Of a stretch of DNA of 37,181 nt, positions 19,444-37,162 are shown piece after piece. The first letter of the stretch is position 1, and each line of letters starts with the position of its first letter. Under the pieces are notes generated by a model that was not told where the DNA came from, did no database searches, and was given only the letters and a program-made list of their open reading frames with translations. The position numbers were made by a program, and so were the translations under genes. The stretch is from a virus. The stretch is from the IMG/VR virus record IMGVR_UViG_3300031566_000173, positions 1 through 37,181 of that record; one strand, written 5' to 3'.

Positions 19444-20022
19444 ATGTTCGACAACGAGAGCCCCGAAGTCTTCGCGAACATTCCCGACACATTCCGTCCT
19501 GACAAGGACCAGGAAACCAACGGCGTGTCGCAGGCGCACACCCCAGCAGCGCCACCGGGCATCTCGGGATACCCAGACGGCCTCGGTGGTCAGAGCCCAG
19601 ACGGCCTCGGTGGCATGGGGGCATATGCCCAACCAATGCCAGAGGGGTTGCCCACGTCCTACCCACAGGGTGTGCAGCCTGGCGCCGGAGTGCCGATGGG
19701 GGCGATGGGCCAGTGGCAGATGCCCTTCGAGCCGATGGACGTTTCGCCCGAAGCGGCGATCCGGTCGGCGGGAATGACGACGCTTGCCACTGCGGTCGCC
19801 TTCGGCGGTGGCCTCGCCATCGGAGGATGGAAGGGGGGCATCGCCGGGCTTCTGCTGAGCGGCGGCGCCTTCAACCTCTACCGTGCGCAGAAGTGGTGGG
19901 GCTCCGCCGAGCCCAGCGAGAAGCACGAGGCGGTCGTATCGAGCATCGTGGGCGCGGCAGGCGTCGCTGGCGGCGGGTACGCTGCCTACAAGGCATACAC
20001 GGAGAGGGAGACTGCCGAATGA
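19444..20022 (+). CDS. Gly/Pro-rich membrane protein, 192 aa
   Basis: The N-terminal 100 residues are disordered and rich in Pro, Gly, Gln and Met, including the tandem repeat PDGLGGQS-PDGLGGMG. The C-terminal part has Gly/Ala-rich membrane helices at about 107-127 (AGMTTLATAVAFGGGLAIGG), 130-142 (GGIAGLLLSGGAF) and 165-182 (VVSSIVGAAGVAGGGYAAY). It heads the operon of probable virion genes and overlaps the next gene by 4 bp. A disordered arm on a membrane hairpin would fit a virion-membrane protein contacting capsid or genome; that is inference. Confidence 0.7.
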   Translation: MFDNESPEVFANIPDTFRPDKDQETNGVSQAHTPAAPPGISGYPDGLGGQSPDGLGGMGAYAQPMPEGLPTSYPQGVQPGAGVPMGAMGQWQMPFEPMDVSPEAAIRSAGMTTLATAVAFGGGLAIGGWKGGIAGLLLSGGAFNLYRAQKWWGSAEPSEKHEAVVSSIVGAAGVAGGGYAAYKAYTERETAE

Positions 20023-20861
20023 GCGGCGCTGTCGTCCAGAACTCTGGCGCGACGATGGTCGACGCTCAGATGACCGCCGTGAAGGTGATCAAACCGTTCG
20101 ACGGATTCGAGGCTGTCTACAAGGGACAGCCGACAAGCACTCCGATTGCGTTCCCTGGCGTGCGCGACGCGCGTGCCGCAGCGAACAAGCCAGGCTTCGA
20201 CCCCAACCTGCTCGCCGGCATTCCAGTGCCGCAGGGAGCGCGGGTACTCATCCAGTTTCCGTTGACGCCCGCTCCTGGCGAGCAGGGCGGCTTCACGTCC
20301 TACACGTATCGCATCGTCGAGCGGTTCGCGAACCTGAACGACTATCGAGATCCGCCGCGAGGTCAGCCTCGACCGGCCTACCACTTCCCTCGTTCATCGC
20401 CCGGCGCTCCTGACACCACGGGCGGCATCTCGAAGCCCCGCACGCTGCGCCCGGCGTTCTTCAAGGACATCGGTTTCGAGGCAGCGCTCATGGCCGCGTC
20501 GAACGGCCAGCTGCGTCTTCGCCCAGAGGAGATCATCCTCGACGCGGCGAGCCTGCTCAACCTCGGGCTGCCGCTCCTCTCGGACGGAGGTACCGGAGTG
20601 CTGCAGCAGGGCGTTCTCGACCCAGAGACGAATCCCATCGCGGCGCCGATCCCGTTGTTCCTCCCCTTCTGGTTCGACGCCGAGGGCGACGAGATTATCA
20701 TTCTCGCGACGCGAACGGACCTGTCGGATCCCAGCGACACGTGGGACTTCGCGACCACCGAAGCCGACCTCCCGTTCTCGAACATCTACGGCACGGGTAA
20801 CGGAACGCACCCGAACTTCCCCGACCTGGGCATCTACGTCCAGACGGGCACGACGCCCTGA
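20019..20861 (+). CDS. Beta-rich probable virion protein, 280 aa
   Basis: ATGA overlap with the membrane protein. The chain is beta-rich and almost free of Cys: AVKVIKPFDGFEAVYKG, GARVLIQFPLTPAPGEQGG, TSYTYRIVERFANLNDY, then a Pro-rich loop, FFKDIGFEAALMAASNGQLR, LPLFLPFWFDAEGDEIIILA and a Thr/Asn/Gly end. Its place next to the collagen-like fibre and behind a membrane protein makes it a candidate capsid or vertex (jelly-roll-like) protein. No sequence family is recognised and the structural call is inference. Confidence 0.65.
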   Translation: MSGAVVQNSGATMVDAQMTAVKVIKPFDGFEAVYKGQPTSTPIAFPGVRDARAAANKPGFDPNLLAGIPVPQGARVLIQFPLTPAPGEQGGFTSYTYRIVERFANLNDYRDPPRGQPRPAYHFPRSSPGAPDTTGGISKPRTLRPAFFKDIGFEAALMAASNGQLRLRPEEIILDAASLLNLGLPLLSDGGTGVLQQGVLDPETNPIAAPIPLFLPFWFDAEGDEIIILATRTDLSDPSDTWDFATTEADLPFSNIYGTGNGTHPNFPDLGIYVQTGTTP

Positions 20862-20864
20862 GCT

Positions 20865-21776
20865 ATGACCGTCCGCGACAAGACAGGGACGGCGGGGCGA
20901 GGAACGCCGCGTGTGCCGCCAGGCGATGGGGGTGGGCCAGGACCCCCAGGACCCCCGGGACCGGCGGGTCCGCAGGGCCCCGGCGGCGGCCTCGTCGCCT
21001 GGGGCGTCACGTCGCTCCCCGTCGCCGCTGGCACCTATCGCGTCGCACCGTGGAACGAGGACATCGTTGCGCTAGCCGGTCAGTTCGCGTGGTCGTCAGG
21101 CTGCCCGCTTGTGCTCGCGTGCCTGACGGTGCGGCACAACGTGCTTGGCGCTGCTGCGGAGCCGATCACGTACACCCTGTTCATCAACGGCATCGCGACC
21201 GGGCTTTCGGTTGTGCTGAATGCAAACGCGGCGTACGCGACAACGGCGCTTCCGAATGTGCCGGTGGCGCCGTCCGACTTGGTCGAGCTTCGCGCGACGC
21301 ACGCTGGGCTCACCACGAGCCCACAGCGCATCGTCGTCACCGCAACTGCCGGGGCCGGCCTCTTCGGTGTCGACTATCAGCGGGTCGACTCGCCAGAGGT
21401 CTTCACGACTGGCGCGGGAATCCCATCGCCGCAGCCATATGTACCAAAGCCGGGGGCAACGCTGACGACGCCTGCGCTCAGCGGAACGTATCGCGTGCGG
21501 TGGGAGCTTCTGATCACGGGCTCCACCGCCAACGTCAACGCCGCGGCGCAGCTATGGAACGTGACTGACGGCCTCGTGGTCCCGGACTTGAACGGCATCC
21601 AGCGCTTCGAGCCATCTTCGTCGAGCTTTGAGGTCGAGGACATGTCCAAGACGGCGCTCATCGTCTTCGCGGGAGCGCCGAAGACGTTCGAGATTCGTGT
21701 CCGAAAGTTTTCAGGACCGAATCCTGGATCGATCATGTGCGCCCACGGCGTCATCGAGCTTTGGAGGGTCTTATGA
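20865..21776 (+). CDS. Collagen-like fibre/spike protein, 303 aa
   Basis: After a 26-residue N-terminus comes a short collagen-like stretch of about six G-X-Y triplets (GGP GPP GPP GPA GPQ GPG, residues 26-43), which can form a triple helix. Two beta-sandwich-like segments follow: SLPVAAGTYRVAPWNEDIVA to about 165, and ATLTTPALSGTYRVRWELLI to the end, both with the GTYRV strand. Trimeric phage fibres and the PRD1 P5 spike use a similarly short collagen segment before a knob. It is likely a receptor-binding or vertex fibre. Confidence 0.75.
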   Translation: MTVRDKTGTAGRGTPRVPPGDGGGPGPPGPPGPAGPQGPGGGLVAWGVTSLPVAAGTYRVAPWNEDIVALAGQFAWSSGCPLVLACLTVRHNVLGAAAEPITYTLFINGIATGLSVVLNANAAYATTALPNVPVAPSDLVELRATHAGLTTSPQRIVVTATAGAGLFGVDYQRVDSPEVFTTGAGIPSPQPYVPKPGATLTTPALSGTYRVRWELLITGSTANVNAAAQLWNVTDGLVVPDLNGIQRFEPSSSSFEVEDMSKTALIVFAGAPKTFEIRVRKFSGPNPGSIMCAHGVIELWRVL

Positions 21777-22402
21777 GCCAACAGTATGTATTCGACGTTG
21801 CCACGCAGACGGCCACCGGCAAAGTCAACGCCGACGTGATGGCGCAACAACTGATCGACGCGGCCTACGCGAGCGGGGGCCCCTTCGAGGGTCTATGGGT
21901 CGTGGGGGGCACACCAGAGGACGGCGGTGTCATTGCCGGCGGGACGATGACGGTCCAATGGCAGAACGCGCTGAATGCTGCCGACGATGCGGCGCAGACG
22001 GCCCTCGTGCTGGCGCACACGGCCCCCACCTTCGGTCCCATCGTGCAACGCGCCTCCAGCGAAGGCGTCGATAGCACCACGTCCACGACACCGCAGGCCA
22101 AGGTGAGTGGAACCGTACTGCCGCTACCGGCGGGGAAGTATTTGGTCGCCGCGTACTGTGAGATGCGGATGTCCGCCATCGTCGCGAACAGCGGAGTGAG
22201 GGCCCGCGTTATCCTCAACGGAAACGACGTCGCGGAAGACAACTGGGGGGAGGCCCAGTGGCATGCTTTCAGCGCTGCCGGAATCGTCACCATCAAAGCC
22301 GGGGAGACTCCCATGATGCTGATCGACTACCAGCGTATCGGCGTGCTCAACACGGCGGAGATCCGCCGCGCGCGCATCTCGATCTCGCAGCAGTACGACT
22401 AG
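21773..22402 (+). CDS. Fibre-like protein, 209 aa
   Basis: ATG 21773 follows GGAGGG and overlaps the collagen-like gene stop. Residues 1-100 are helical/Gly-rich (DVMAQQLIDAAYASGGPFEG, ALNAADDAAQTALVLAHTAP), suggesting a trimerising stalk. Residues 110-209 form a beta-sandwich (VSGTVLPLPAGKYLVAAYCE, RARVILNGNDVAEDNWG, PMMLIDYQRIG), similar in style to the head of the preceding protein, including a shared DYQR sequence. It is probably a second adhesin or fibre subunit. Confidence 0.65.
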   Translation: MSQQYVFDVATQTATGKVNADVMAQQLIDAAYASGGPFEGLWVVGGTPEDGGVIAGGTMTVQWQNALNAADDAAQTALVLAHTAPTFGPIVQRASSEGVDSTTSTTPQAKVSGTVLPLPAGKYLVAAYCEMRMSAIVANSGVRARVILNGNDVAEDNWGEAQWHAFSAAGIVTIKAGETPMMLIDYQRIGVLNTAEIRRARISISQQYD

Positions 22403-22434
22403 GCTGCACCCACCCAAAACCAGGAGACAGGAGC

Positions 22435-22902
22435 ATGGTGCTACACAAAGGGGCAAGAGTCGAAGGTGCCGATTACTTCGACGACTTCGGTACGAGGCAG
22501 AATCGCGAAGGCGGCGGCATCCTTTCGGGGCTCGGCCAGGACGACTTCGAGAGCGTGCAGGAAACGATCGGCGGCGAAGGGCTGCAGGTCAAGATGAACT
22601 GCCGTCTCTGCGGCAAGCAGCACGTCGTCACGTTGGAGTGGGAGGAGTTGTTCGTCGTCGGCACGAATGGGCCTGGCGTCGCGCCTCTTATGCCGACCGG
22701 CTGGCAGTATTCCGAGAACAACGGCGCCTGCTACCCGGCGATGATCAACTGCGCCAAGTGCGGCGAGGATGGCGGCCTCTGTCCGATGGTCACTCCACAG
22801 GAGGCGCGTGACCGAGTGAACGAGGCGGTCGGCCGCGGCGCAATCCCCGTGGGCGCGATCCAGATGTGGAAGCAGCGTGTCTCGGGGTTCCGTGGCGGAT
22901 GA
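22435..22902 (+). CDS. Zinc-binding hypothetical protein, 155 aa
   Basis: It starts at ATG 22435 after CAGGAGACAGGAGC. Two Cys clusters, MNCRLCGKQHVVTLEWEEL and MINCAKCGEDGGLCP, are separated by about 50 residues and would form a zinc ribbon around a beta sheet. The N-terminus has a Gly-rich turn (REGGGILSGLGQDDF). No family is recognised. It is followed by a metallopeptidase with a 4-bp overlap. Confidence 0.65.
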   Translation: MVLHKGARVEGADYFDDFGTRQNREGGGILSGLGQDDFESVQETIGGEGLQVKMNCRLCGKQHVVTLEWEELFVVGTNGPGVAPLMPTGWQYSENNGACYPAMINCAKCGEDGGLCPMVTPQEARDRVNEAVGRGAIPVGAIQMWKQRVSGFRGG

Positions 22903-23447
22903 ACTCATGCCGCGACACCGACACTGACCTGACGGTCGAGGAGGCGTACGCCATCCTCGAACCGTACTTTCTCGCGGTTCAGGAGCGGTTCGTGGCAGAG
23001 GGGGCCGGGCGCGCCTCAAGCGTGCGGCTCGAAGTTGCGCCCTGGGCGCACGACACGGCTCGCCACTTCGCGGCGACGGCGACAACCGGTTCTCCCGTGG
23101 TCGTCGCGCCCGAGTTGGCTGAGCTACCAGAGGAGACGGTGCTCGCGATTCTTTCGCACGAGTTTGGGCACGCGGTCGACTACCTCTACCCGGGTGAGTA
23201 CGTGCTCGTCGACGACGGTGAGCTTGTGCGGCAGCCGCCGACGCCGCCGCACGACCTCGGGGGCAAGCGCGGCGAGCAGGCGTGCCTCGCACGCATGAAG
23301 CGATGGGAGCGACGCGACGACGACGCCGTTGAGCGCACCGCGGACGCCATCGCCGAACACTTCACGGGGCATCTGATCGGGTACTGCGGCCCGTGCGACC
23401 TGCAGTGCTTCAACCGTGGCACGAGTCGCCCTGACGGGTTGCGATGA
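22899..23447 (+). CDS. Zincin-like metallopeptidase, 182 aa
   Basis: The active-site helix is AILSHEFGHAVDYL with HEFGH at 87-91 (HExxH), and the downstream helix DDAVERTADAIAEH (about 141-154) supplies the probable third ligand. The C-terminus GYCGPCDLQCFNRGTSRPDG is Cys-rich; the ending LQxFxRGxxRPxGLR is familiar from phage zincin-like proteins. Targets are unknown: such phage enzymes may process virion proteins or cleave host regulators. ATG 22899 overlaps the previous stop. Confidence 0.82.
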   Translation: MNSCRDTDTDLTVEEAYAILEPYFLAVQERFVAEGAGRASSVRLEVAPWAHDTARHFAATATTGSPVVVAPELAELPEETVLAILSHEFGHAVDYLYPGEYVLVDDGELVRQPPTPPHDLGGKRGEQACLARMKRWERRDDDAVERTADAIAEHFTGHLIGYCGPCDLQCFNRGTSRPDGLR

Positions 23448-23460
23448 CAGGAGAAGTCCG

Positions 23461-24885
23461 ATGATTGCAAACAGCAAGAAGCTCGAATGGCAGGGCGGCT
23501 CCTTTCGCCCAAACGGCGCCCGCAGCGGCTACGGAGAGGAAGGCGCGCGGCTCGCCAAGAATTTCACGCGGTGGTCCTCGAACGAGATGATTCTTGCAGC
23601 GCGGATCTTCGTCGGTTTCAACGTGGGCCAGGAGCCGGTCTACACGCTCGAAGACCTCGTGGAGATCGTGAAGAACGCTCGGTGGGCGCAGACCGGAGAT
23701 CCGAGCAGCACGTTCATCGCGCAGCGCGGCGTCTACCGACACGAGGGCGGCGAGGTCGTCGAGGAGGACGGCGCGCAGGTGATCATCCTCAACACGGAGG
23801 AGATGCCGTACAAGGAGTTCGTCGACCAGATGATCACGCTTGCGGAGGCCATCGCGGAGCGCATGAAGCAAGAGGAGGTGATCGTCGAGATCCAGCGCGG
23901 CGGCATCACGCAGCAGGTGCTCGGGGTCGGCGCGGGCCGCATGGCCCCGAACATCTCCTACCCGTACTGGGACGTCATCACGCCGGAGGAGTACGTCTCT
24001 CACCGTCGCGAGGCTAAGAGCGATCCTCACGCCGTGGAGGAGATTATCTCCCAACAGGAGATGGAGTTCGCGCGCGAGTATCCGGGCATCACGGGATACG
24101 AGGCGCGCCGCGCACGACGGTTGCATCAGTACGCCCCGAACGCCCATGGAGACATTCGCATCGAGTTCGGCGTGATTCGGCTCGACGACGACGCGGGATG
24201 GGTGCCAGCGATTTGGGAAGTTCTGACGGACACGCCGCCGCACCTGCTGACAAGCATTCCACCGCGCGGAGACGGCGACGACCGTGAGGACGCGCAGGCG
24301 AGCGCGCTGTCGCTTGCTCAGCGCGAGGCATCCCACTACATCGGCGACTGGAACATCTCGATCGTGCCCATCGAGGAGATGACGCAGGCGGAGGCAATCG
24401 CACGCGCGCGGCGGTATCACATGCGGCACCGGCCCAACGCCGACTGGGAGGCCACCGGCCGCATCGCGTACCGAGGCCGTGACGCCGGCGGACCGTCAGT
24501 CGAGACGAGCCTCGACACTCGCGCGGACGAGCGCCCAGGAGCCCGCATCGACTACAAGCTCGTGCCGAACATGCTGAGAAGCCGCTCTACGCCACACGGA
24601 GCCGCGCCGCTCACCGAGAAGCAGGACGAAGACGCCTACGCCGCAGGCTACGACGCGGCGTCGCTGTTCAGCAGCAGCCGGGTGCCGACCGATCTCGACG
24701 ACATCTTCCTGTTCACGCTCCTCCACGACCAACGAGTGCCGAACGTCAACGAAGAGGACCCGCAGTTTTGGGAGTGGCGGTTTATGGTCCGCGAGGGAGC
24801 CGGCGACTACCTAGAGGCGTACCCACCGGGGGAGCCAGACAGGGCTGCAACCCAGGCATTCCGTCGACGCTACGGGCTCGTCTAG
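23461..24885 (+). CDS. Large protein of unknown function, 474 aa
   Basis: It starts at ATG 23461 after CAGGAGAAG. The N-terminus reads WQGGSFRPNGARSGYGEEGA, followed by TRWSSNEMILAARIFVGFNV and a domain with AQVIILNTEEMPYKEFVDQM and KQEEVIVEIQRGGITQQVLG. A mid-region of charged helices and an acidic C-terminus (LDDIFLFTLLHDQRVPNVN) follow. No Walker, transmembrane or catalytic motif stands out. Size and position suggest a virion or maturation role, but no family is recognised. Confidence 0.7.
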   Translation: MIANSKKLEWQGGSFRPNGARSGYGEEGARLAKNFTRWSSNEMILAARIFVGFNVGQEPVYTLEDLVEIVKNARWAQTGDPSSTFIAQRGVYRHEGGEVVEEDGAQVIILNTEEMPYKEFVDQMITLAEAIAERMKQEEVIVEIQRGGITQQVLGVGAGRMAPNISYPYWDVITPEEYVSHRREAKSDPHAVEEIISQQEMEFAREYPGITGYEARRARRLHQYAPNAHGDIRIEFGVIRLDDDAGWVPAIWEVLTDTPPHLLTSIPPRGDGDDREDAQASALSLAQREASHYIGDWNISIVPIEEMTQAEAIARARRYHMRHRPNADWEATGRIAYRGRDAGGPSVETSLDTRADERPGARIDYKLVPNMLRSRSTPHGAAPLTEKQDEDAYAAGYDAASLFSSSRVPTDLDDIFLFTLLHDQRVPNVNEEDPQFWEWRFMVREGAGDYLEAYPPGEPDRAATQAFRRRYGLV

Positions 24886-25313
24886 TGAAGCTCTGCGCCG
24901 GCATTCTGCTGTGCGCGAAGGACTCCGGCCGATGCCTGTTCCTGCTGCGCGACGACGCCCGCTGGGATCTCCCAGGAGGCCACGCGGAGCGCTACGACCG
25001 CACGGCGCTCGATACGGCGCTACGCGAGCTTGCCGAGGAGACTGGCTACGGGGGCAGCTTGGCGCTCGCGCGCGAGCGCATGCGCGTCAGCTGGTGCCCC
25101 GATCTTCTGCTCGGACACCTGTGGCAGTCGTGCAAAACGCGCTACACCGGAGTAGTCGGCTACGTCCCAAGGGAGTTCGTGCCGCGGCTCGACGATGAGC
25201 ACGTCGACGCGCTCTGGGCACATCCCGGAGACGCACCGGGGCCACTGCTGCCCGGGGTCGATTTCATGCTGGAGTGGGCCGATAGTCTTCAACTGCTGGG
25301 AGACGCATCATGA
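24885..25313 (+). CDS. Nudix hydrolase, 142 aa
   Basis: The GTG overlaps the previous stop (TAGTG). The Nudix box region is WDLPGGHAERYD, then ALDTALRELAEETGY, giving the R-E-x2-x-E-E-x-G core (Arg 47, Glu 48, Glu 51, Glu 52). The position normally Glu before the helix is Asp and there is one extra residue, a variant known in the superfamily. It hydrolyses a nucleoside diphosphate linked to some moiety; the substrate (damaged dNTP, NAD-type or ADP-ribose) cannot be told. Confidence 0.88.
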   Translation: MKLCAGILLCAKDSGRCLFLLRDDARWDLPGGHAERYDRTALDTALRELAEETGYGGSLALARERMRVSWCPDLLLGHLWQSCKTRYTGVVGYVPREFVPRLDDEHVDALWAHPGDAPGPLLPGVDFMLEWADSLQLLGDAS

Positions 25314-25567
25314 GGATGATCAGTGACGAAGATTGGTGGAATCTGATGCACGAGGCGATCGACGCGATCGGTGAAGGGCACGAAGCGATCCAGCGCAAGG
25401 CAGCGTACAAGTGGGCGGCGTACGCGGCCTACGCGCAGGAAGACGGAAGGCCGCTGCAAGCCCGGGACTACGCGCATGAAGCCATCGAGCACGCGGCACT
25501 CAGCGGCGACGACTATGTGCTCGACGATGTGCGAGAACTACTTGCGAATTACGAAATCGAAACCTGA
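25310..25567 (+). CDS. Hypothetical helical protein, 85 aa
   Basis: ATGA overlap with the Nudix gene. The chain is all helical and rich in Ala, Tyr and acidic residues: EDWWNLMHEAIDAIGEGHEA, KAAYKWAAYAAYAQEDGR, AEALSG-like turns and DDVRELLANYEIE. It may be a small TPR-like helical hairpin. No family is recognised. It ends 6 bp from the convergent gene, with no visible terminator. Confidence 0.6.
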   Translation: MRMISDEDWWNLMHEAIDAIGEGHEAIQRKAAYKWAAYAAYAQEDGRPLQARDYAHEAIEHAALSGDDYVLDDVRELLANYEIET

Positions 25568-25573
25568 AACGTG

Positions 25574-26740
25574 TCACAGACGTCCCGCGTCGATGTCCTC
25601 GATCAGCGGAGTGATCACTTCCCAGAGCGCGGAGTGGTTGGCGGTGCCAGCGGTGCGCCCGAGCGTCTCCCAGAGCATCCATTGCGCCTTAGCGAACGGC
25701 ATGAACCAGTCCGGGTCGAAGTACGGCGTCTCGCTGAGCCTATCCTCCATCTCTACATATGCGTTGAGCGCGGCGCGAGTGCTGCCGCGTGCGCCCTTCG
25801 CCTTCGAGCGTGCCTTCGTCTTGTCCATCCACCGAACACGCTCCGGCTCTTTCGCGCGGATGCCCTTGTAGAACTCCTCCTCCTCCTGCTTGGCGAGCGC
25901 ATCTAGCTCCCCGACGTCGAAGCTCGCATCTTCCTCCTGCTCGTCGTACTGGCCGAAGAAGTAGCGTTGCATCCGCGTGTCGAGGCACGCGGCGTCGCGG
26001 CCCATGAGCATCATCGTGAAGGACAGCTTCGCGAGCCCGATGCCGCGCGGGAGCCATTCGATGGCAACCATGTCGCGGAATCCGCGATTGTAGTTCGGCG
26101 AAGCGTTCGCTTGCTCGGCGACCCAGGGCGCCCACTCGAAGATCGAGACGTACGCAGGAATGTCGTCCCACGAATACTCGCCCTTGCGTGGCCCCTTCTG
26201 GAGCCTTCGCACGGCGCGTGTGTTCGCGATCCCCTTGAACCGCTGCAGCTGCTTCGCGGTCGGCGGCTTGCCGCGAACGAGCGCGTCGCGGATCGTCGGG
26301 CCGAAGATCCGGAACAGCATCTCGGCTTCCTTAATGGAGCGCTGGATCGAGTTGCGCGCGAAGATCGCAGACAGCGCGACGGTCCGCCAGTCAACGGCGA
26401 CGCCCTCACGCCACCGTCGAATGTACTCCCACGCGATCGGGTATCCGCTGGGAAACTCGCCGCCCCCCTCGCGGGCCTCCAGCATCACGACCTCGGCCCG
26501 GTTCGCGGCGAGCGCCTCTTCGGTGACGAGGTGCCCGGAGAAGGGTGACTGCACGAGCGCCGGCGAAACGCCTGGCAGCGTCGCGCCGCCCTCCGTCTCG
26601 ATGACGCAGAAGAAGTCCTCCGGAGCTACCCAGGTTGATCCGAAGATCGGGTCGGCGACCAGCGTTCGCCCCCGGGATATGTCGGCGAGAAAGCCGACGG
26701 AGCCAAAACCCTCGGGGCGCACGTAGGCGGCTGCGTACAT
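25574..26740 (-). CDS. Putative HhH-GPD-like (DNA glycosylase-fold) protein, 388 aa
   Basis: A lone leftward gene. The N-terminal 100 residues include a beta-rich domain (FGSTWVAPEDFFCVIETEGG) with a helix-rich remainder. At 229-241 WLPRGIGLAKLSF resembles a helix-hairpin-helix, followed by MLMGRDAACLDTRMQRYFFG with Asp 254 at the place of the catalytic Asp of HhH-GPD base-excision glycosylases; phage proteins with a similar GIGLAK...CLDxH pattern exist. The C-terminus is acidic/basic and helical. ATG 26740 is preceded by a -10 box and no ribosome site. It may be a repair glycosylase or a non-catalytic relative. Confidence 0.6.
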   Translation of the reverse strand: MYAAAYVRPEGFGSVGFLADISRGRTLVADPIFGSTWVAPEDFFCVIETEGGATLPGVSPALVQSPFSGHLVTEEALAANRAEVVMLEAREGGGEFPSGYPIAWEYIRRWREGVAVDWRTVALSAIFARNSIQRSIKEAEMLFRIFGPTIRDALVRGKPPTAKQLQRFKGIANTRAVRRLQKGPRKGEYSWDDIPAYVSIFEWAPWVAEQANASPNYNRGFRDMVAIEWLPRGIGLAKLSFTMMLMGRDAACLDTRMQRYFFGQYDEQEEDASFDVGELDALAKQEEEEFYKGIRAKEPERVRWMDKTKARSKAKGARGSTRAALNAYVEMEDRLSETPYFDPDWFMPFAKAQWMLWETLGRTAGTANHSALWEVITPLIEDIDAGRL

Positions 26741-26747
26741 GGTCAGC

Positions 26748-26753
26748 AGTATA
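26748..26753 (-). promoter_or_regulatory. -10 box TATACT, leaderless type
   Basis: On the minus strand TATACT (five of six consensus) ends 7 nt before ATG 26740. No Shine-Dalgarno and no good -35 box are visible. It fits the leaderless pattern of the window. Confidence 0.5.
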
Positions 26754-26820
26754 CCCGTTGACAGCCAGAACGAGATACGCCGGCGGGCGCCGATGGATTG
26801 GGGCGTGGCGTCGAACAGGG

Positions 26821-27175: not shown

Positions 27176-27544
27176 GTGCCGGCACATGCCATGGCGAACC
27201 GTGCCCCCGAGGGCTTCAACGAGACGTGGCGTCTGCGAACGGTCATGGTGCCGGATGTGCTGGTGCGCGTGCTGCTCGACTGGGCGCGCCCGGACACGCC
27301 TGCCGATCGGCTAGGCACGCTGGGCATGCGCGAGCCGGTGTCCTTGTCGATGATCGATGCGGCCGTCTCGGATCTCGCGGAGATGAACGAGCAGGTCGAC
27401 AGCGGCGAGTTGGACGTTCTGATCAGCGAGCTACAGGAGGTCCGGCGGGACTGGCGCAGCTACACTGTGCCGCCCGCAGAGGACGACCAGTACGACCGAG
27501 GCGGGTACGAGTTCGTGGACAACGAGATGGAGATCGAAACATGA
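27176..27544 (+). CDS. Hypothetical protein, 122 aa, first gene of the virion-like operon
   Basis: The start is uncertain: GTG 27176 (10 nt after the -10 box) or ATG 27191. The sequence has TWRLRTVMVPDVLVRVLLDW, MIDAAVSDLAEMNEQVDSGE, LDVLISELQEVRRDWRSY and an acidic tail (DDQYDRGGYEFVDNEMEIE). It is mostly helical with a possible coiled coil. No family is recognised. It is coupled to the next gene by ATGA overlap. Confidence 0.6.
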   Translation: MPAHAMANRAPEGFNETWRLRTVMVPDVLVRVLLDWARPDTPADRLGTLGMREPVSLSMIDAAVSDLAEMNEQVDSGELDVLISELQEVRRDWRSYTVPPAEDDQYDRGGYEFVDNEMEIET

Positions 27545-28056
27545 GCAGAGTCACAGGTGACAGCCAGATCGAGTTGGAGGTCGGCGAGCTTGAGCTTCCC
27601 GGCGTCGAGATCCGACATCTGCAAGCCGCAGAGCCGGAGACCTTGGAGCGCCTTTTCGCACAGCTGCAGAACGAGATGCTGGCACGTGGAACCGAAGGAC
27701 CGGACGGTCCTTCGATCTGGCGTCTCGCGTTTCTCGATCTCGCCGGCGCGGGCGACGGGCACGTCTTCACGTGCTCCAGCGTCTGGGTCAACACGGATGA
27801 GGTCGATGTGCTGGGAGCGATTCCGACGCCGCCCAGCCTGCTCAGCGGCAAGCTCTTTTTCTTCATGGGCTCGTCGGCCGACGCGCTCACGGCGGCGCGC
27901 AAAGAGGCCCAGAAGAGGCTGGCTGCGCGCTTCGACGAGGAGACCACGCCGCCCGTCGGTCATGTCTCCGAACTGCAGACCCTGCTCGCTGGCGCTCAGC
28001 AGGGGACGCGCTTCATGGGCGCCGTGCTTGCCGTCACCGCGCAAGCTCCGCAATGA
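27541..28056 (+). CDS. Probable virion protein, paralog 1 of 3 (171 aa)
   Basis: The first of three related genes in a row. Shared features, in order: FLDLAGAGDGHVFT (64-77), GKLFFFMGSSADALTAARKE (helix), and AGAQQGTRFMGAVLAV near the C-terminus. The N-terminal 60 residues are acidic (QIELEVGELELPGVEIR) and helical. The alternation of beta strands, one central amphipathic helix and a final strand suggests a small capsid, cement or spike-base domain. No known family is recognised; paralogy is seen, the role is inferred from position. Confidence 0.7.
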   Translation: MSRVTGDSQIELEVGELELPGVEIRHLQAAEPETLERLFAQLQNEMLARGTEGPDGPSIWRLAFLDLAGAGDGHVFTCSSVWVNTDEVDVLGAIPTPPSLLSGKLFFFMGSSADALTAARKEAQKRLAARFDEETTPPVGHVSELQTLLAGAQQGTRFMGAVLAVTAQAPQ

Positions 28057-28078
28057 TCGCGGGGAAAGGGAAAAGGCC

Positions 28079-28633
28079 ATGCGTTTACAAAGTGGTACAC
28101 AGTTGATCTTCTTCTCGAAGGAGGCCGCTCTCGGTCCGGGAGCGCAGAGCGTGTTCGTCCAGGGCTCGCTCGACGGCACACTCTCCAGAAACGTCAGCAA
28201 GGCGATGATCGCGCTCTCCTTGGAAAACGAGGGAAGTGCCGATCCAAAGTGGTCGCCGACGCACGTCGATCTGGCGGGCGGCGGCGACGGCACTGCGTTC
28301 ATGCTCGGGGTGCGTGTAGCATCCGGCACCGCGGAGGAGGTCCAGGTCCTCGATAGCGGGGCGATCGAGATCGAGACCGAAAACTCTTTCGTCGAGGCTT
28401 TCCCCTTTTTCATGATGTCGGGAGGCGCTCAAAGCGAGGCGCTCACTGCGCGAGCGCACGCGGCGCTCCAGCAGATTCGCTCCAGCGGAGTCTTCGATGA
28501 TGCTGCCCCGGTGCCAGAGAGTTGGGAAGCCATCGGCCTCTTCTTCGGGTCGATGTTCGCGGGAGCCTCTGCCGGCGGCGACTTCATGAGCGTCGTGTAC
28601 GGAGCGCGGGTCGCCTCCTCCACAGAGGAATGA
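28079..28633 (+). CDS. Probable virion protein, paralog 2 of 3 (184 aa)
   Basis: ATG 28079 follows AAAGGGAAAAGG. It carries the family motifs HVDLAGGGDGTAFM (62-75), FPFFMMSGGAQSEALTARAH and GASAGGDFMSVVYGA, but the N-terminal 60 residues differ from its neighbours and are beta-rich (TQLIFFSKEAALGPGAQSVF). Gene spacing of 22 bp before and 13 bp after suggests one operon. Likely arose by tandem duplication and divergence. Confidence 0.7.
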   Translation: MRLQSGTQLIFFSKEAALGPGAQSVFVQGSLDGTLSRNVSKAMIALSLENEGSADPKWSPTHVDLAGGGDGTAFMLGVRVASGTAEEVQVLDSGAIEIETENSFVEAFPFFMMSGGAQSEALTARAHAALQQIRSSGVFDDAAPVPESWEAIGLFFGSMFAGASAGGDFMSVVYGARVASSTEE

Positions 28634-28646
28634 AAGGGAGTTCACA

Positions 28647-29459
28647 ATGAGGATAGATTCCGACGTCATAGTAGATTTCGCGGTGCCGCAGGGTAGTTCC
28701 CGGCAGCGCGACGACTACGTGCAAGCCTCCGACGCCGCGACCATGGAGACCCTGGTGAGCCAGAAGCTCGCAGAGGTCGCGAAGCTCAACCTCGCTGCGT
28801 CCATCGACACTCTGTGGGCAAGCCTTTTCATCGACATCGCAGGAGCCGGCGACGGGCACGTCTTCATGACGCGCCTCTACTCGAACGGCAGCGGACCCAT
28901 CGACGGCAAGGTTTCGGATAACGAAGGCGGCGTGGATCCGGCGCTGCTGCGCATCTTCTTCTACTCCGCCGCCCAGTCGGAGGCGCTCGACGCCGCCGCC
29001 GTGCGGGCGAAGCAGAGGATCGGCAAGCTGTTGGTCGACCTCGAAGAGTTCGAGGACTTTCTCGAAGACGCGATCGTGCGACAGACAGGGCTGTGCGGCG
29101 CTTCGCAGGGAACGCAGGTGATGGGTTTTCTGCTCGTCAAGCTGCTTCCAGACCAGCCGATCATCAACAGCGTCGTGCTCAACGCGCCACCTGGCATGAG
29201 TGAGATCAACGGTGAGGGTCTGCAGAGTCTTCTGCCGAATACGCAGACGATCGTGCAGGTGGACGGGCCGAACCTGACGCCGGACAGTCAGCTGATCACG
29301 GAGAAGCAGATCATCGACGCTGGTGGAACCATCACGCCGACGCAGATCCTGTTTCCGGTTTCGCTCGTCAGCGGCACGCTCGGCCCCGGGGCGACCGACA
29401 GCGTGAAGGTGTACGCGAACGGCGTCACGAACGGATCCAACTCGTTCGTCATCCCCTGA
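28647..29459 (+). CDS. Probable virion protein, paralog 3 of 3, with C-terminal Ig-like extension (270 aa)
   Basis: ATG 28647 follows AAAGGGAG. Residues 1-175 contain the family motifs FIDIAGAGDGHVFM (61-74), LRIFFYSAAQSEALDAAAVR and GASQGTQVMGFLLVKL. Unlike paralogs 1 and 2 it has a further 90 residues, NAPPGMSEINGEGLQSLLP, then IVQVDGPNLTPDSQLITEKQ, ILFPVSLVSGTLGPG and VKVYANGVTNGSNSFVI, which read like an IPT/TIG-type immunoglobulin domain found in surface and fibre proteins. It is probably displayed at the virion surface. Confidence 0.7.
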   Translation: MRIDSDVIVDFAVPQGSSRQRDDYVQASDAATMETLVSQKLAEVAKLNLAASIDTLWASLFIDIAGAGDGHVFMTRLYSNGSGPIDGKVSDNEGGVDPALLRIFFYSAAQSEALDAAAVRAKQRIGKLLVDLEEFEDFLEDAIVRQTGLCGASQGTQVMGFLLVKLLPDQPIINSVVLNAPPGMSEINGEGLQSLLPNTQTIVQVDGPNLTPDSQLITEKQIIDAGGTITPTQILFPVSLVSGTLGPGATDSVKVYANGVTNGSNSFVIP

Positions 29460-30037
29460 TGAGCAGCACGCCGTACATTCTCGGCACCATCGCCGCATTG
29501 TCGGCCGTGAAGGCAGTCTTCCGGCCGCACAGGGCGGTGGTGCGCGAGGGTGCGGTGAGCAGCTGCCCTGGCGTCAATCAGTACAACGAGTGCGACCCCA
29601 CGCTGCCGATCGACGCTCCCGTCGGCAGCGCGGTGTACTCGACGGCGACGGGTCGCGTGGTGGCCGTCGGCGAGGATTTCGTTCACGTCGCCACTCGGAA
29701 CGAGCCGGTGGTGCTCTACTACGACGGCATCGCGCCGAGCGTTCGAGAGGGGCAGTACGTCGGCCGCGGGCAGGAGATCGGCGCCTCCAAGGGGCGCGTG
29801 CACTTCGGCGTCCAACAGTTCGCCCAGGGAGGCCAGATCCTTAACATCGAGCCGTCCTCGTGGCTCGCTGCTCGCGGCAACCGCATCGCTGGCAAGTACA
29901 CGGGAGGGGGAGGCCAGTGGTGCGAGCAGAACCGGCACATCTCCGTGCCGCGATCCGCCGGCGCCCCTTGCCAGTTCTACGAGCCAGACAGGGCTGCCTT
30001 CGCGCTGCTGCCGGTCACCGTAGAGGTGGAGCGGTAA
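29459..30037 (+). CDS. M23-like (LytM) domain protein, catalytically degenerate, 192 aa
   Basis: ATG 29459 overlaps the previous stop (TGATG). An N-terminal hydrophobic segment (YILGTIAALSAVKAVF) may anchor it. Residues 45-135 follow the beta-barrel of M23 peptidases: DAPVGSAVYSTATGRVVAVG, VREGQYVGRGQEIGASKGRV and HFGVQQFAQGG. The zinc His/Asp of the first strand and the HxH motif are not intact: only one His (VHFGV) remains, and the YAHL-like position reads VVLYYDG. It may be a wall-binding or structural relic rather than an endopeptidase. Four Cys residues fit an exported protein. Confidence 0.65.
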   Translation: MSSTPYILGTIAALSAVKAVFRPHRAVVREGAVSSCPGVNQYNECDPTLPIDAPVGSAVYSTATGRVVAVGEDFVHVATRNEPVVLYYDGIAPSVREGQYVGRGQEIGASKGRVHFGVQQFAQGGQILNIEPSSWLAARGNRIAGKYTGGGGQWCEQNRHISVPRSAGAPCQFYEPDRAAFALLPVTVEVER

Positions 30038-30370: not shown

Positions 30371-30478
30371 ATGGCCACGAAGAAGAAGAAGGGCGCCCGC
30401 AAGAAGAAGACCCTGCGCGACATCGTGCTCCCGCCGGACTCGGTTGTCGCGAGGCTCCGCGCGCGCTTCAAGAAGTGA
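30371..30478 (+). CDS. Very basic 35-aa peptide
   Basis: A short gene with a perfect ribosome site (GGAAGGAGG, 6 nt from ATG 30371) and GTGA overlap with the endolysin. The peptide MATKKKKGARKKKTLRDIVL ends VVARLRARFKK; 15 of 35 residues are Lys or Arg. It may bind or condense DNA, or be a virion-internal peptide. Too short for family assignment. Confidence 0.65.
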   Translation: MATKKKKGARKKKTLRDIVLPPDSVVARLRARFKK

Positions 30479-31296
30479 CGGGCGAGCTACCCGTCCTCCG
30501 CGTAGGCTCGCGGGGCCGATGGGTCGGCGTCCTGCAGACGTTCCTGCTCGGACGCGGGCACTACAAGGGCCGCGTCGACAATGCGTTCGGACCCCTGACG
30601 GAGAAGGCCGTCAGGGCGTTCCAGCGCGCGCACATGCTCAGGGCCGACGGCGTTGTCGGCAATCAGACGTGGGGCGCCGCGATGATGCTCGGGCTGGAGC
30701 TTGTCGCGTCACCGGCACGGGACTCGAAGCGCGTCGACAGCCCGGCGTGGCCGTCGCCGCCGGTCGATCTGCGGCCGATGTACGGGACGGCCCGGGAGAA
30801 GCTGTTCGGCCACATCGAGTTCAAGCACACGCCGACGCCGCGGAGCCCCGAAGCCGTGACCATCACGAACGGCTGGCAGAAGGAGAACCTCGTCATCGCG
30901 AAGGTGCCGCAGCTGGCGACGCTCTACGAGGAGCGACCGGCGCGCTCGGGCTTCCCGAAGAACGGCAGCATATTCTGTCACCGGCTTGCCGCGGAGCCCG
31001 TCCGCGCGCTCTGGCAGGCATGGGAGGACGAGGGGCTGCTCGACCGCGTGATGACGTTCCAGGGTGCCTGGGTGGCTCGCTTCGTGCGAGGCTCGCGCAC
31101 CACGCTGAGCAACCATTGCTATGGCAGCGCCTTCGACATCAACTACGCATGGAACATGCTGGGACACCGCCCCGCTCTCGTCGGTGAGGAAGGCAGCGTT
31201 CGAGAGCTTGTCCCCACCGCGAACAAGCTGGGCTTCTATTGGGGAGGCCACTTCACCAGGAACGACGGCATGCACTTCGAGGTGGTCCGGCTATGA
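30475..31296 (+). CDS. Endolysin: peptidoglycan-binding domain plus M15 peptidase, 273 aa
   Basis: Residues 5-75 are a PG-binding type 1 domain (VLRVGSRGRWVGVLQTFLLG, NAFGPLTEKAVRAFQRAHML, DGVVGNQTWG). A linker leads to a D-Ala-D-Ala carboxypeptidase-like (M15/VanY) domain with TLSNHCYGSAFDINYAW (His 214, Asp 221) and the terminal NDGMHFEVVRL (His 268 region), the full SxHxxGxAxD and HxE-type zinc set. It cleaves peptide cross-links at lysis. GTG 30475 overlaps the basic peptide gene. No signal peptide, so a holin would be needed. Confidence 0.92.
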   Translation: MTGELPVLRVGSRGRWVGVLQTFLLGRGHYKGRVDNAFGPLTEKAVRAFQRAHMLRADGVVGNQTWGAAMMLGLELVASPARDSKRVDSPAWPSPPVDLRPMYGTAREKLFGHIEFKHTPTPRSPEAVTITNGWQKENLVIAKVPQLATLYEERPARSGFPKNGSIFCHRLAAEPVRALWQAWEDEGLLDRVMTFQGAWVARFVRGSRTTLSNHCYGSAFDINYAWNMLGHRPALVGEEGSVRELVPTANKLGFYWGGHFTRNDGMHFEVVRL

Positions 31297-32903: not shown

Positions 32904-33548
32904 GTGATCATCACCAAGAGGTTCGTGTTCGTGCACATGCCGAAGACCGGAGGCACATGGCTCCGCGAGGTGCTCAAGCGCTACAAGCATCCGCTGTGGC
33001 ATTTGAAGGAGCGACCGGGGCACGAGACGTCGGCGGAGGCGCCTCCGGGGTTGACGACACTCGGCACCGTGCGGAACCCGTGGGACTGGTACGTCTCGTG
33101 GTACTTTTTCCGCTGTCGCGAGTACCAGGATCGCACCGGCCTGTTCGCGCCAGATCGTCCGAGAGAGGGCTGGGTAGACCTCATGAACCGTTGGAAGGAG
33201 CACGTCGCGCAGCCCGACGTCAGGACACGCGAGGGGTTTCTGCGAGCGCTGCCGCGCCTCATGGACGGTTCCCTGACCGAGTCGTACACGAAGACACACA
33301 CGCAATTCTTCGAGCGCGGGCGCCCGGTGCAGCTGGCCCGGTTCGAGCACCTTGGGGCTGACGTGACGGCGTTTCTCAAGGAAAACCGCATCCCGAACAA
33401 GCTCAAGCTGCGCACCGCGCTGCGCACCGCACCGCGGAAAAACACCTCACGTCACGGCCCTTACCGCGACTACTACGACGAGGAGGCTAGGGACTTGGTT
33501 GCGAGTGCCGACCGTGCGATCATCGAGAGGTACGGCTATGAGTTTTGA
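32904..33548 (+). CDS. Sulfotransferase family protein, 214 aa
   Basis: The 5'-phosphosulfate loop FVFVHMPKTGGTWLREVLK (residues 7-25) and the 3'-phosphate motif GTVRNPWDWYVSWYFFRC (about 53-70) identify a PAPS-dependent sulfotransferase of the Sulfotransfer_2-like group. Later parts have QLARFEHLGADVTAFLKEN and YYDEEARDLVASADRAIIER, also typical. It transfers sulfate to a carbohydrate or other hydroxyl. Such genes are rare in phages and may alter host surface polysaccharide to prevent superinfection. GTG 32904 start. Confidence 0.85.
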   Translation: MIITKRFVFVHMPKTGGTWLREVLKRYKHPLWHLKERPGHETSAEAPPGLTTLGTVRNPWDWYVSWYFFRCREYQDRTGLFAPDRPREGWVDLMNRWKEHVAQPDVRTREGFLRALPRLMDGSLTESYTKTHTQFFERGRPVQLARFEHLGADVTAFLKENRIPNKLKLRTALRTAPRKNTSRHGPYRDYYDEEARDLVASADRAIIERYGYEF

Positions 33549-34065
33549 CGCTGAGGCCGAGGCCAAGCTCGCGGAGTTGACGCCGGAGACGGAGCGGCGC
33601 GTGCGCATGCTGATCCGCTACGCGGAGCGCAACGGCATCCCGATCGAGTTCATCGACAAGACGTACCGCACATGCAAGGAGCAGAACGCGCTCTACTCGG
33701 CGGGCATCACGCCCGCGCGTGGCTGCAAGTCCTGGCACACGTGGGGACGCGCAGTCGACCTCTACATCCCAGGCTGGCGCACGTGCAACGCTGCATGCCA
33801 GGCCAACTACGCCTTCCTCGCCGACTACTGGAAGGGCATGGGGGGGAAGTGGGGCGGCGACTTCTCGTACGCGGACCTCGTGCACTTCGAGTGGCATCCG
33901 GAGTACGGGTCGATCAACGACGTCTGCCCGAGCGCGGACGCGCTCTGCCCGGCGCCACCGTGGCCGGAGGATCGGCCGTGGCAGGTCCGCGCGGCGCTGC
34001 CGCTTGGGATTGCGCTCGCGGCCGCCGGGGCCGGCGCCGCGTACTACATCTGGAAAGGAGCATGA
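33538..34065 (+). CDS. Tail-anchored M15 peptidase, 175 aa
   Basis: An L-Ala-D-Glu endopeptidase-like M15 domain: LIRYAERNGIPIEFIDKTYR, CKEQNALYS, CKSWHTWGRAVDLYIPGW (His 67, Asp 74) and FSYADLVHFEWHPEYG (His 116, Glu 118), the complete zinc set. After a Cys/Pro-rich linker the C-terminus is a membrane helix (VRAALPLGIALAAAGAGAAY, about 150-170) with a short charged tail. A C-tail-anchored wall hydrolase is unusual for a free endolysin and fits a virion-membrane enzyme for DNA entry. ATG 33538 overlaps the sulfotransferase end by 11 bp. Confidence 0.85.
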   Translation: MSFDAEAEAKLAELTPETERRVRMLIRYAERNGIPIEFIDKTYRTCKEQNALYSAGITPARGCKSWHTWGRAVDLYIPGWRTCNAACQANYAFLADYWKGMGGKWGGDFSYADLVHFEWHPEYGSINDVCPSADALCPAPPWPEDRPWQVRAALPLGIALAAAGAGAAYYIWKGA

Positions 34066-35851: not shown

Positions 35852-35915
35852 CGCGGCTTCCGCGAAGAACCGTGACCCTGCGGCTGTCCGCCGCAGGCTG
35901 CAGGTCGGACGCTAG
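35781..35915 (+). CDS. Basic Cys/His peptide, 44 aa
   Basis: A hidden small gene with a near-perfect ribosome site (CAGGAGGTCTCC before ATG 35781), overlapping the previous gene by 71 bp. The peptide MHHKRKRPKKQRAGCLFCKP continues HKGNAASAKNRDP and ends in a basic helix. The KxRAGCLxCKPHK pattern recurs in small bacterial and phage peptides (from memory). It may bind zinc and nucleic acid. Its stop overlaps the convergent kinase-like gene by 4 bp. Confidence 0.65.
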   Translation: MHHKRKRPKKQRAGCLFCKPHKGNAASAKNRDPAAVRRRLQVGR

Positions 35916-37162
35916 CGCGTGTTGTGGATCAGCCGCTCAGGAATCTCCCAGGTGCCGACCGTCGGCGTGTGCCCCGGGTCGAAGATTACGATGCGCGCCC
36001 AGTCGTCATCGTCTCTCGGAACATGCCAGCCGATGTTCAGGAGGTGAACGTCGCGCAGCAGCACGTCGTTGGTGGCCAGCATTTCCAGGGACTCACCGAG
36101 CGGCGCCGCGGATGGGCCATGGAAGTATCCGCGCAGCGCGCGCAAGGCACGATCCATGGCGACGTCACGAGTCCGGATGCCAAGATGGTCGCGGTAGTAC
36201 GAGCGCTCGCGTTGGACGCGCGGCGACCAGCGCTGCTGCGCTCCCAGCACATGCCAAGCCGTCGCTGCGTCACGATACAAGCGGAGGCCCTTGATCATCG
36301 ACGAGACGTCCTGTGCACGCGGGCTGCCAGGCAACTCTGCGGTCTCCAGGCGAGTCGCAGACGGCAGTCCAAGAACCCGGTTCGTGTAGTCGCTGGTCGC
36401 GAGAATCTTGCCGCCTCCGTGTTCTCCAAGCTCGCGCGCGTTGTACTCCTTGAACACCGGCTCGACGCCCTCGCGCACGATGGCCCAGACCTTGCGTTTG
36501 CGCCCGCCGATCACAAGGTCCGGCGTCAGGCGGTAGATGCCCTTGATTTCCGTGAAGCCGTCCTGTCCCCACTGCTCGCCCTGCACGAGCCCGGCGATCT
36601 TCGACCACGCCGGCCCCTCGGTGGGGTCGATGGAGAGCTTCACCACCCACGGGTTCGCGCTCTCGAACACGCAGCCCCAGTGGCCACATCCGAGCAAGTC
36701 CCCCAGCGGCACGCTGATCGCGCGTTGGATCGCCTCACGCTTGCCGAGCAGCGCATTCACCCATTTTTTGCGGGTTGCGTTCGCCGTCATACCCGCCCCC
36801 TCCGCGGCCAGAAGCATCGTGTAGTAGTCGGCGCGCTCGGCGAGGTGGTCGAGCGCAATCTCCTTGGCGATGTCGGGGTCGCTGGTGTGTTCAAGCTCGG
36901 TCTGGATACCGAGTCGCAGCTGTTCTGGATCGACGTCGCTCTCCGTGATGCCGAGACGATCGGCGAGTCCCCCAGGGAGACTGTCAGGGTTTGGCGCCAT
37001 TTTTTCAACGGCGCCCAGTTCTTCCAGCCATTCGATGGCCTCTCCAGGCGTCCTAAACCACTCCTGCATGTGGTCACCATCGGCGTCTTCTGACTCGAAG
37101 CGAAAAGAGCCATCGTACTCGCCCGTGAACACGTCGTATTCGGAGCACGCGGGAAAGATCAC
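35912..37162 (-). CDS. Protein kinase-like protein with DUF5661-like segment, 416 aa or more
   Basis: Residues 78-118 (DPEQLRLGIQTELEHTSDPD, then IALDHLAERADYYT) match the DUF5661 style. From 152 on, kinase hallmarks appear in order: a glycine loop LLGCGHWGCVFE (156-167), PWVVKLSID with Lys 175, a catalytic-loop-like VLLRDVHLLNIGW (367-379; Asp 371, Asn 376) and IVIFDPGHTP with Asp 395 at the DFG place. It could phosphorylate host proteins or small molecules. The GTG start at 37162 has a poor ribosome site and the frame is open to the window edge, so the N-terminus may continue outside. Confidence 0.7.
   Translation of the reverse strand: MIFPACSEYDVFTGEYDGSFRFESEDADGDHMQEWFRTPGEAIEWLEELGAVEKMAPNPDSLPGGLADRLGITESDVDPEQLRLGIQTELEHTSDPDIAKEIALDHLAERADYYTMLLAAEGAGMTANATRKKWVNALLGKREAIQRAISVPLGDLLGCGHWGCVFESANPWVVKLSIDPTEGPAWSKIAGLVQGEQWGQDGFTEIKGIYRLTPDLVIGGRKRKVWAIVREGVEPVFKEYNARELGEHGGGKILATSDYTNRVLGLPSATRLETAELPGSPRAQDVSSMIKGLRLYRDAATAWHVLGAQQRWSPRVQRERSYYRDHLGIRTRDVAMDRALRALRGYFHGPSAAPLGESLEMLATNDVLLRDVHLLNIGWHVPRDDDDWARIVIFDPGHTPTVGTWEIPERLIHNTR

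Follow-up and report, generated by a model that had tools for sequence, protein, structure and literature searches.

Three tandem genes of an uncultured virus as probable short members of a new family of fibre or spike base domains

Three consecutive genes, here called A, B and C, in the stretch of DNA analysed in this study (the window, 37,181 bp, which is the whole IMG/VR record) are homologous members of a multi-copy domain family, and they probably represent short members of a new family of base domains of virion fibres or spikes. The reading as surface structures of the virion is based on the N-terminal position of the domain on collagen-like or YadA-type stalks in longer paralogues, on the variable tips of these proteins, and on the adjoining wall hydrolases. 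The domain family is new, while the functional kind to which it is assigned, a fibre base, is a known one. The genes in and around the trio are the following:

27176-27544, plus strand: first open reading frame of the operon, 122 aa, with a stop codon that overlaps the start of A (ATGA)
27541-28056, plus strand: gene A, 171 aa (ATG 27541, TGA 28056), a single domain of the putative fibre-base type
28079-28633, plus strand: gene B, 184 aa, the most diverged copy among A-C
28647-29459, plus strand: gene C, 270 aa, with the domain at residues 24-162 and then a C-terminal extension
29142-29456, plus strand: C-terminal extension of C, ~105 aa
29459-30037, plus strand: M23 peptidase (PF01551, 29 bits against a cut-off of 28.7), overlapping the end of C
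30475-31296, plus strand: PG_binding_1 domain and M15 peptidase
33541-34065, plus strand: M15 peptidase, homologues of which in relatives stand first in the conserved tandem cluster of the family

The three genes lie in one tight operon, with no gap before the M23 gene, whose start overlaps the stop codon of C (TGATG). The 122-aa frame at the head of the operon has no Pfam match. In regard to A, B and C themselves, GC content by codon position is that of protein-coding sequence in all three, and their products share 31-32% pairwise identity, with E values of 1e-14 for A/C, 1e-8 for A/B and 6e-7 for B/C, and Z scores against 500 shuffles of 24.7, 13.1 and 11.8, respectively. They are real genes, homologous far beyond chance, and the initial annotation, which had placed a tandem homologous trio at 27541-29459, was exact in its coordinates. 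It had also described three motifs as common to the trio. One of them, D(L/I)AGxGDGxxF, is indeed present in all three proteins, while SEAL is limited to B and C, with SADAL in A instead, and QGTxxMG to A and C, with AGGDFMS in B instead.

The region common to A, B and C is one domain of ~125 aa composed of two copies of a beta-alpha-beta-beta unit, and the domain shared by the tandem genes is therefore itself a tandem repeat. Comparison of its N-terminal with its C-terminal half by hhalign gave a probability of 92% and an E value of 6e-7. According to the family alignment, each half follows the same plan, namely a strand ending in VQSA/YLAS, a helix starting with D/E-A-x-x-L, and then a hairpin with a conserved glycine-rich loop, centred on AGxGDGxxF or AGxxKGxxFMG. 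The GDG motif is located in the first repeat, and the SEAL and QGT..MG motifs in the second; given the internal duplication of the domain, the three motifs do not count as independent signatures. The AlphaFold2 model of A, built from 26 alignment rows (pLDDT 83, pTM 0.79), presents the order strand-helix-strand-strand twice, (beta-alpha-beta-beta)x2, and B and C would be expected by homology to share this fold. The repeats in A are located as follows:

27604-27792, plus strand: repeat 1, residues 22-84, beta-alpha-beta-beta with hairpin loop AGAGDGH
27850-28041, plus strand: repeat 2, residues 104-167, beta-alpha-beta-beta with hairpin loop GAQQGTR

Sequence and fold searches of PDB returned no significant match to the domain, and a fold search of BFVD with A also gave none. 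The weak Foldseek similarities of A were to tandem ACT and SOUL proteins (best E 0.024, TM <0.4); since no Foldseek match was significant, no known anchor shares the fold. Likewise, a scan of 26 family members against Pfam, NCBIfam and PHROG models gave no family below E 0.017 and none common to two members. The family had been proposed as unrecognised, and this agrees with the outcome in every library tried (Pfam, NCBIfam, PHROGs and PDB). Unrelated folds or a known enzyme family, which would have spoken against the proposal, were not found: one profile covers A, B and C, no enzyme family was matched, and the structure predicted was that of A. The added domain ascribed to C exists as ~105 extra residues, but its Ig-like character was not confirmed, as a Pfam search to E<=5 found no family for the extension, PDB offered no sequence below E 0.5, and the relatives had nothing else that matched it. 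An IPT/TIG assignment of this tail likewise found no support in the Pfam search.

Rather than standing as an isolated triplication, the three genes belong to a multi-copy family. Scans of IMG/VR with A or C as single proteins found nothing, and relatives were reached only with a three-row profile of A, B and C, from which the family was extended by iteration with the use of two sub-family alignments. Counting the window and 13 further contigs of uncultured viruses in IMG/VR (designated by G numbers), it comprises 66 domain rows, 65 of them different; ~60 copies lie outside the window, and the largest relatives carry about 8-10 copies each. Some copies of the domain stand by themselves, frequently in tandem and close to M15/M23 peptidases, and others form the N-terminal part of long proteins. 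No relative was found in GTDB genomes, which were searched twice, or in isolated phages and plasmids; matches in Staphylococcus phages at E 0.6 were dismissed as chance matches in a nuclease-like gene. The distant relatives G007, G009 and G010 have no detectable member, and therefore the domain is not essential to all these viruses.

Short members show a recurring arrangement. In G002, G003, G004, G011 and G014 they stand in tandem directly behind an M15 peptidase gene, where G012 keeps a single one, and the third genes of these sets carry a C-terminal extension of ~150 aa, so that relatives repeatedly show three genes of which the third is longer. The corresponding M15 gene of the window (33541-34065) is located 4 kb from the trio, which precedes the M23 gene; in G002 and G003, homologues of this M23 gene (29459-30037) are followed by a long family member. 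In the phylogenetic tree, the first genes of the tandem sets cluster at 99/90, the second genes at 100/99, and the third genes fall in a clade at 99/99. A groups with two copies from G001 at 99/97, with B and C outside. The latter two form long branches, neither of which is placed with the conserved tandem genes of the relatives; the AU test gave p 0.098 for the grouping of C with the third-gene set, and p 0.08 for a lineage-specific triplication of A-C.

About half of the family members are long, with the domain at the N-terminus, often starting with MSRYG; collagen-like GxTG repeats or hexapeptides of the YadA type come next, and a C-terminal region completes the protein. The collagen-like stalk was recognised by PF01391 (E 4e-7 in G004), and PHROG models of tail fibres and tail proteins cover the collagen part. 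A 732-aa member in G003 (59185-61383) contains 21 SHAEG hexapeptides and matches YadA_head (PF05658) with 32.5 bits against a cut-off of 25. Among 25 long members, a comparison that excludes the G004 frame 21101-25471, which runs past a plausible gene, the N-terminal domain is conserved (median normalised score 0.51), whereas the last 120 aa are as unlike each other as shuffled sequence (medians 0.05 vs 0.05). Long members combine a constant base with variable tips, which is the pattern of receptor-binding fibres. Their heads appear beta-rich by eye and have no Pfam match, TNF/C1q included. Two further genes of the window are relevant here:

20019-20861, plus strand: P0004, 280 aa, conserved single-copy core protein, beta-rich
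20865-21776, plus strand: short collagen-repeat protein with a different N-terminus (RGTPRVPP), a second fibre type

Long members adjoin the conserved gene of the capsid candidate P0004 in G004, G011, G013 and G014. Members with collagen or YadA stalks were found in relatives and not among A-C, and the base-plus-collagen form is absent from the window contig, where the collagen protein at 20865-21776 uses another N-terminus; this observation stands against the fibre-base reading, as do the lack of a known anchor with this fold, the position of B and C in the tree apart from the tandem genes of relatives, and the distant relatives in which no member was detected. Collagen N-termini of the RGTPRVPP type or close to it, unrelated to the A-C domain, are present in G004 (39334-41163) and G010 (121977-123851) as well as in the window, and this type is shared with the more distant relatives.

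In regard to the function of the family, the ~125-aa domain most likely serves as the base that holds a fibre or spike on the particle. Long paralogues would then consist of the base, a trimeric stalk and a variable receptor-binding tip, and short members of the base only, or, as in C, of the base with one extra domain. A, B and C would build, or line, the base of an entry structure, such as a spike base or vertex, beside the M15/M23 wall peptidases, which would open the host envelope. We infer that the domain is present in the virion, that the base is trimeric and that it has a role in attachment. Virion-like components near wall hydrolases had been suggested from the outset, and the fibre/spike architecture, the viral family and the linkage to peptidases lend it partial support, with fibres or spikes as the presumed location.

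Bases of this kind are known from other phages. PfN is a ~134-aa N-terminal domain of phage collagen-like fibres, proposed to contain the viral attachment site (PMC3368898). The family described here resembles PfN, as found in collagen-like fibres of E. coli prophages and in lambda Stf, in the N-terminal base of ~130 aa, the trimeric collagen or coiled-coil fibres and the variable C-terminal ends (PMC3368898). However, the A-C domain represents another family by sequence (26 members, no family below E 0.017), and it also occurs without a stalk and in tandem arrays, with up to ten copies in one genome. The spike protein P5 of the tailless phage PRD1 is built of an N-terminal base, a collagen-like segment and a TNF-like head. 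Long members follow the same layout of base, collagen-like stalk and, as judged by eye, beta-rich head, but the base of P5 is a jelly roll, while that of A is predicted as (beta-alpha-beta-beta)x2. The second-best viral fold match to A in BFVD was a collagen-like protein of Escherichia phage vB_EcoS-BECP10 (A0A7T7GU87; prob 0.96, TMq 0.38), which at E 0.028 and 16% identity is not significant and serves as a lead only.

Several other explanations of the trio can be considered. In line with the initial annotation, A, B and C could assemble as obligate subunits into one hetero-oligomeric complex of the capsid, penton or vertex, with the stalked paralogues as later offshoots. The presence of three non-identical copies in one tightly packed operon is consistent with such a complex, and the tandem sets of relatives have recurring, separately conserved members, as expected of distinct subunits. 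However, B and C do not group with the ortholog sets of the relatives (for C not firmly, given the AU result above), most family members are located outside such trios, and single-copy P0004 is a better capsid candidate; we consider an obligate complex rather unlikely. Less probable still is that the domain trimerises collagen-like fibres or keeps them in register without needing to contact the particle, its short copies acting as chaperones, caps or assembly regulators. Since stalks of the collagen and YadA types are obligate trimers, the N-terminal domain would have to suit a trimer, and short members without any stalk would fit such auxiliary roles. Nevertheless, a genome has several short members, which are conserved in tandem beside peptidases and bear extensions of their own, and this exceeds what a chaperone would need, and in the E. 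coli phage collagen fibre that was studied, the N-terminal domain alone is largely monomeric and trimerisation is accomplished by the C-terminal domain (PMC3368898).

Finally, A, B and C could lie outside the virion and act on the host wall together with the neighbouring peptidases, as secreted or cell-surface proteins, as enzymes, or as ligand-binding proteins of the ACT/ferredoxin-like kind. The operon shared with the M23 gene, the M15 peptidases nearby and the weak fold similarity of A to tandem ACT and SOUL proteins point in this direction. On the other hand, that similarity is below significance, no enzyme family matches, and the fused collagen/YadA stalks with variable tips would be left unexplained, which makes this the least probable of the explanations. 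The fibre or spike base is the reading that we prefer.

The viruses carrying the domain may constitute a new lineage. One contig, G006 (IMGVR_UViG_3300031539_000106), is 99.99% identical to positions 1-25414 of the window and runs 15.9 kb further to the left; the window is therefore only part of a viral genome that measures at least ~53 kb. Circular genomes, recognised by exact end repeats of 123-132 bp or by a 9.9-kb end redundancy, were found in G004 (~138.3 kb), G014 (~136.1 kb), G012 (~120.5 kb) and G015 (~111.5 kb). Replication genes common to the lineage encode DnaB and a DnaC-like loader, with RecT- and YqaJ-like proteins, named by eye, in some relatives, and the genomes also encode several peptidases directed at the cell wall, along with many small proteins that end in one hydrophobic segment. 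A run of such small proteins is located beside a transglutaminase-like protein in G006 (L060:1-11203), and as candidates for inner-membrane virion proteins they are suggestive only. Elsewhere in the window, a 408-aa protein (25574-26800, minus strand) has a close relative (63%) in G003 only, and a DUF5661 protein with a remainder that is kinase-like by eye (35912-37162, minus strand) is conserved across the lineage.

None of the 10 records screened, complete-looking circular genomes included, contained a terminase large subunit of the three families used (phrog_2, PF03237 and PF03354, which do not represent every terminase family), and the positive controls were found. Searches of the same number of records for one portal family (PF04860) and for the HK97-fold major capsid protein (PF05065), from which diverged HK97 proteins could escape, were equally negative. 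In a look for a packaging ATPase of the HerA/FtsK type, the only ATPases recognisable among broadly conserved proteins with a Walker A motif were DnaB-like and DnaC/IstB-like. The relatives are a candidate lineage of very large tailless phages, and a literature search for a described group of this kind retrieved no matching paper. P0004 is the best candidate for their major capsid protein; its predicted model is beta-rich but of low confidence (pLDDT 59, pTM 0.61), and its fold matches, none of them significant, commonly include a picornavirus capsid protein, TNF and other jelly-roll proteins.

SSIP-1 is described as a tailless phage with a circular dsDNA genome of 44 kb, an internal membrane and T=49 (PMC6260650, PMC6356626). 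Its virion protein gp34 is homologous to a transglutaminase-like core protein of the lineage (hhalign 97.8%, E 1e-12; tblastn 1e-7), and both genes adjoin a gene for a coiled-coil protein. Transglutaminase-like folds are widespread, and this homology suggests a link of the lineage to SSIP-1 but does not prove it. The lineage also resembles SSIP-1 in the circular genome and in having no terminase or portal match, but its genomes are 2.5-3 times larger, P0004 has no sequence match in SSIP-1, and SSIP-1 has no fibre-base domain, so the family was rejected as an SSIP-1 module. Among the 35 proteins of SSIP-1, gp34 alone convincingly matches core families of the lineage, and a close relationship was rejected on this ground. 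A tentative wider scenario, which we would not expect to hold in full, is that of undescribed circular, tailless and membrane-containing phages of ~111-138 kb, distantly akin to SSIP-1, with 8-10 different fibres and spikes held by one new duplicated base domain and with A, B and C forming a hetero-oligomeric base at a vertex that carries the wall peptidases.

The domain marks the presumed fibre or spike proteins of a whole group of uncultured viruses, so it offers a means of finding such viruses and of identifying the proteins with which they recognise hosts. If the lineage is tailless, its genomes would be roughly three times larger than that of SSIP-1 (44 kb), the largest tailless bacterial virus listed in the literature consulted, and these viruses would reveal a novel means by which a single shell is fitted with many different fibres.
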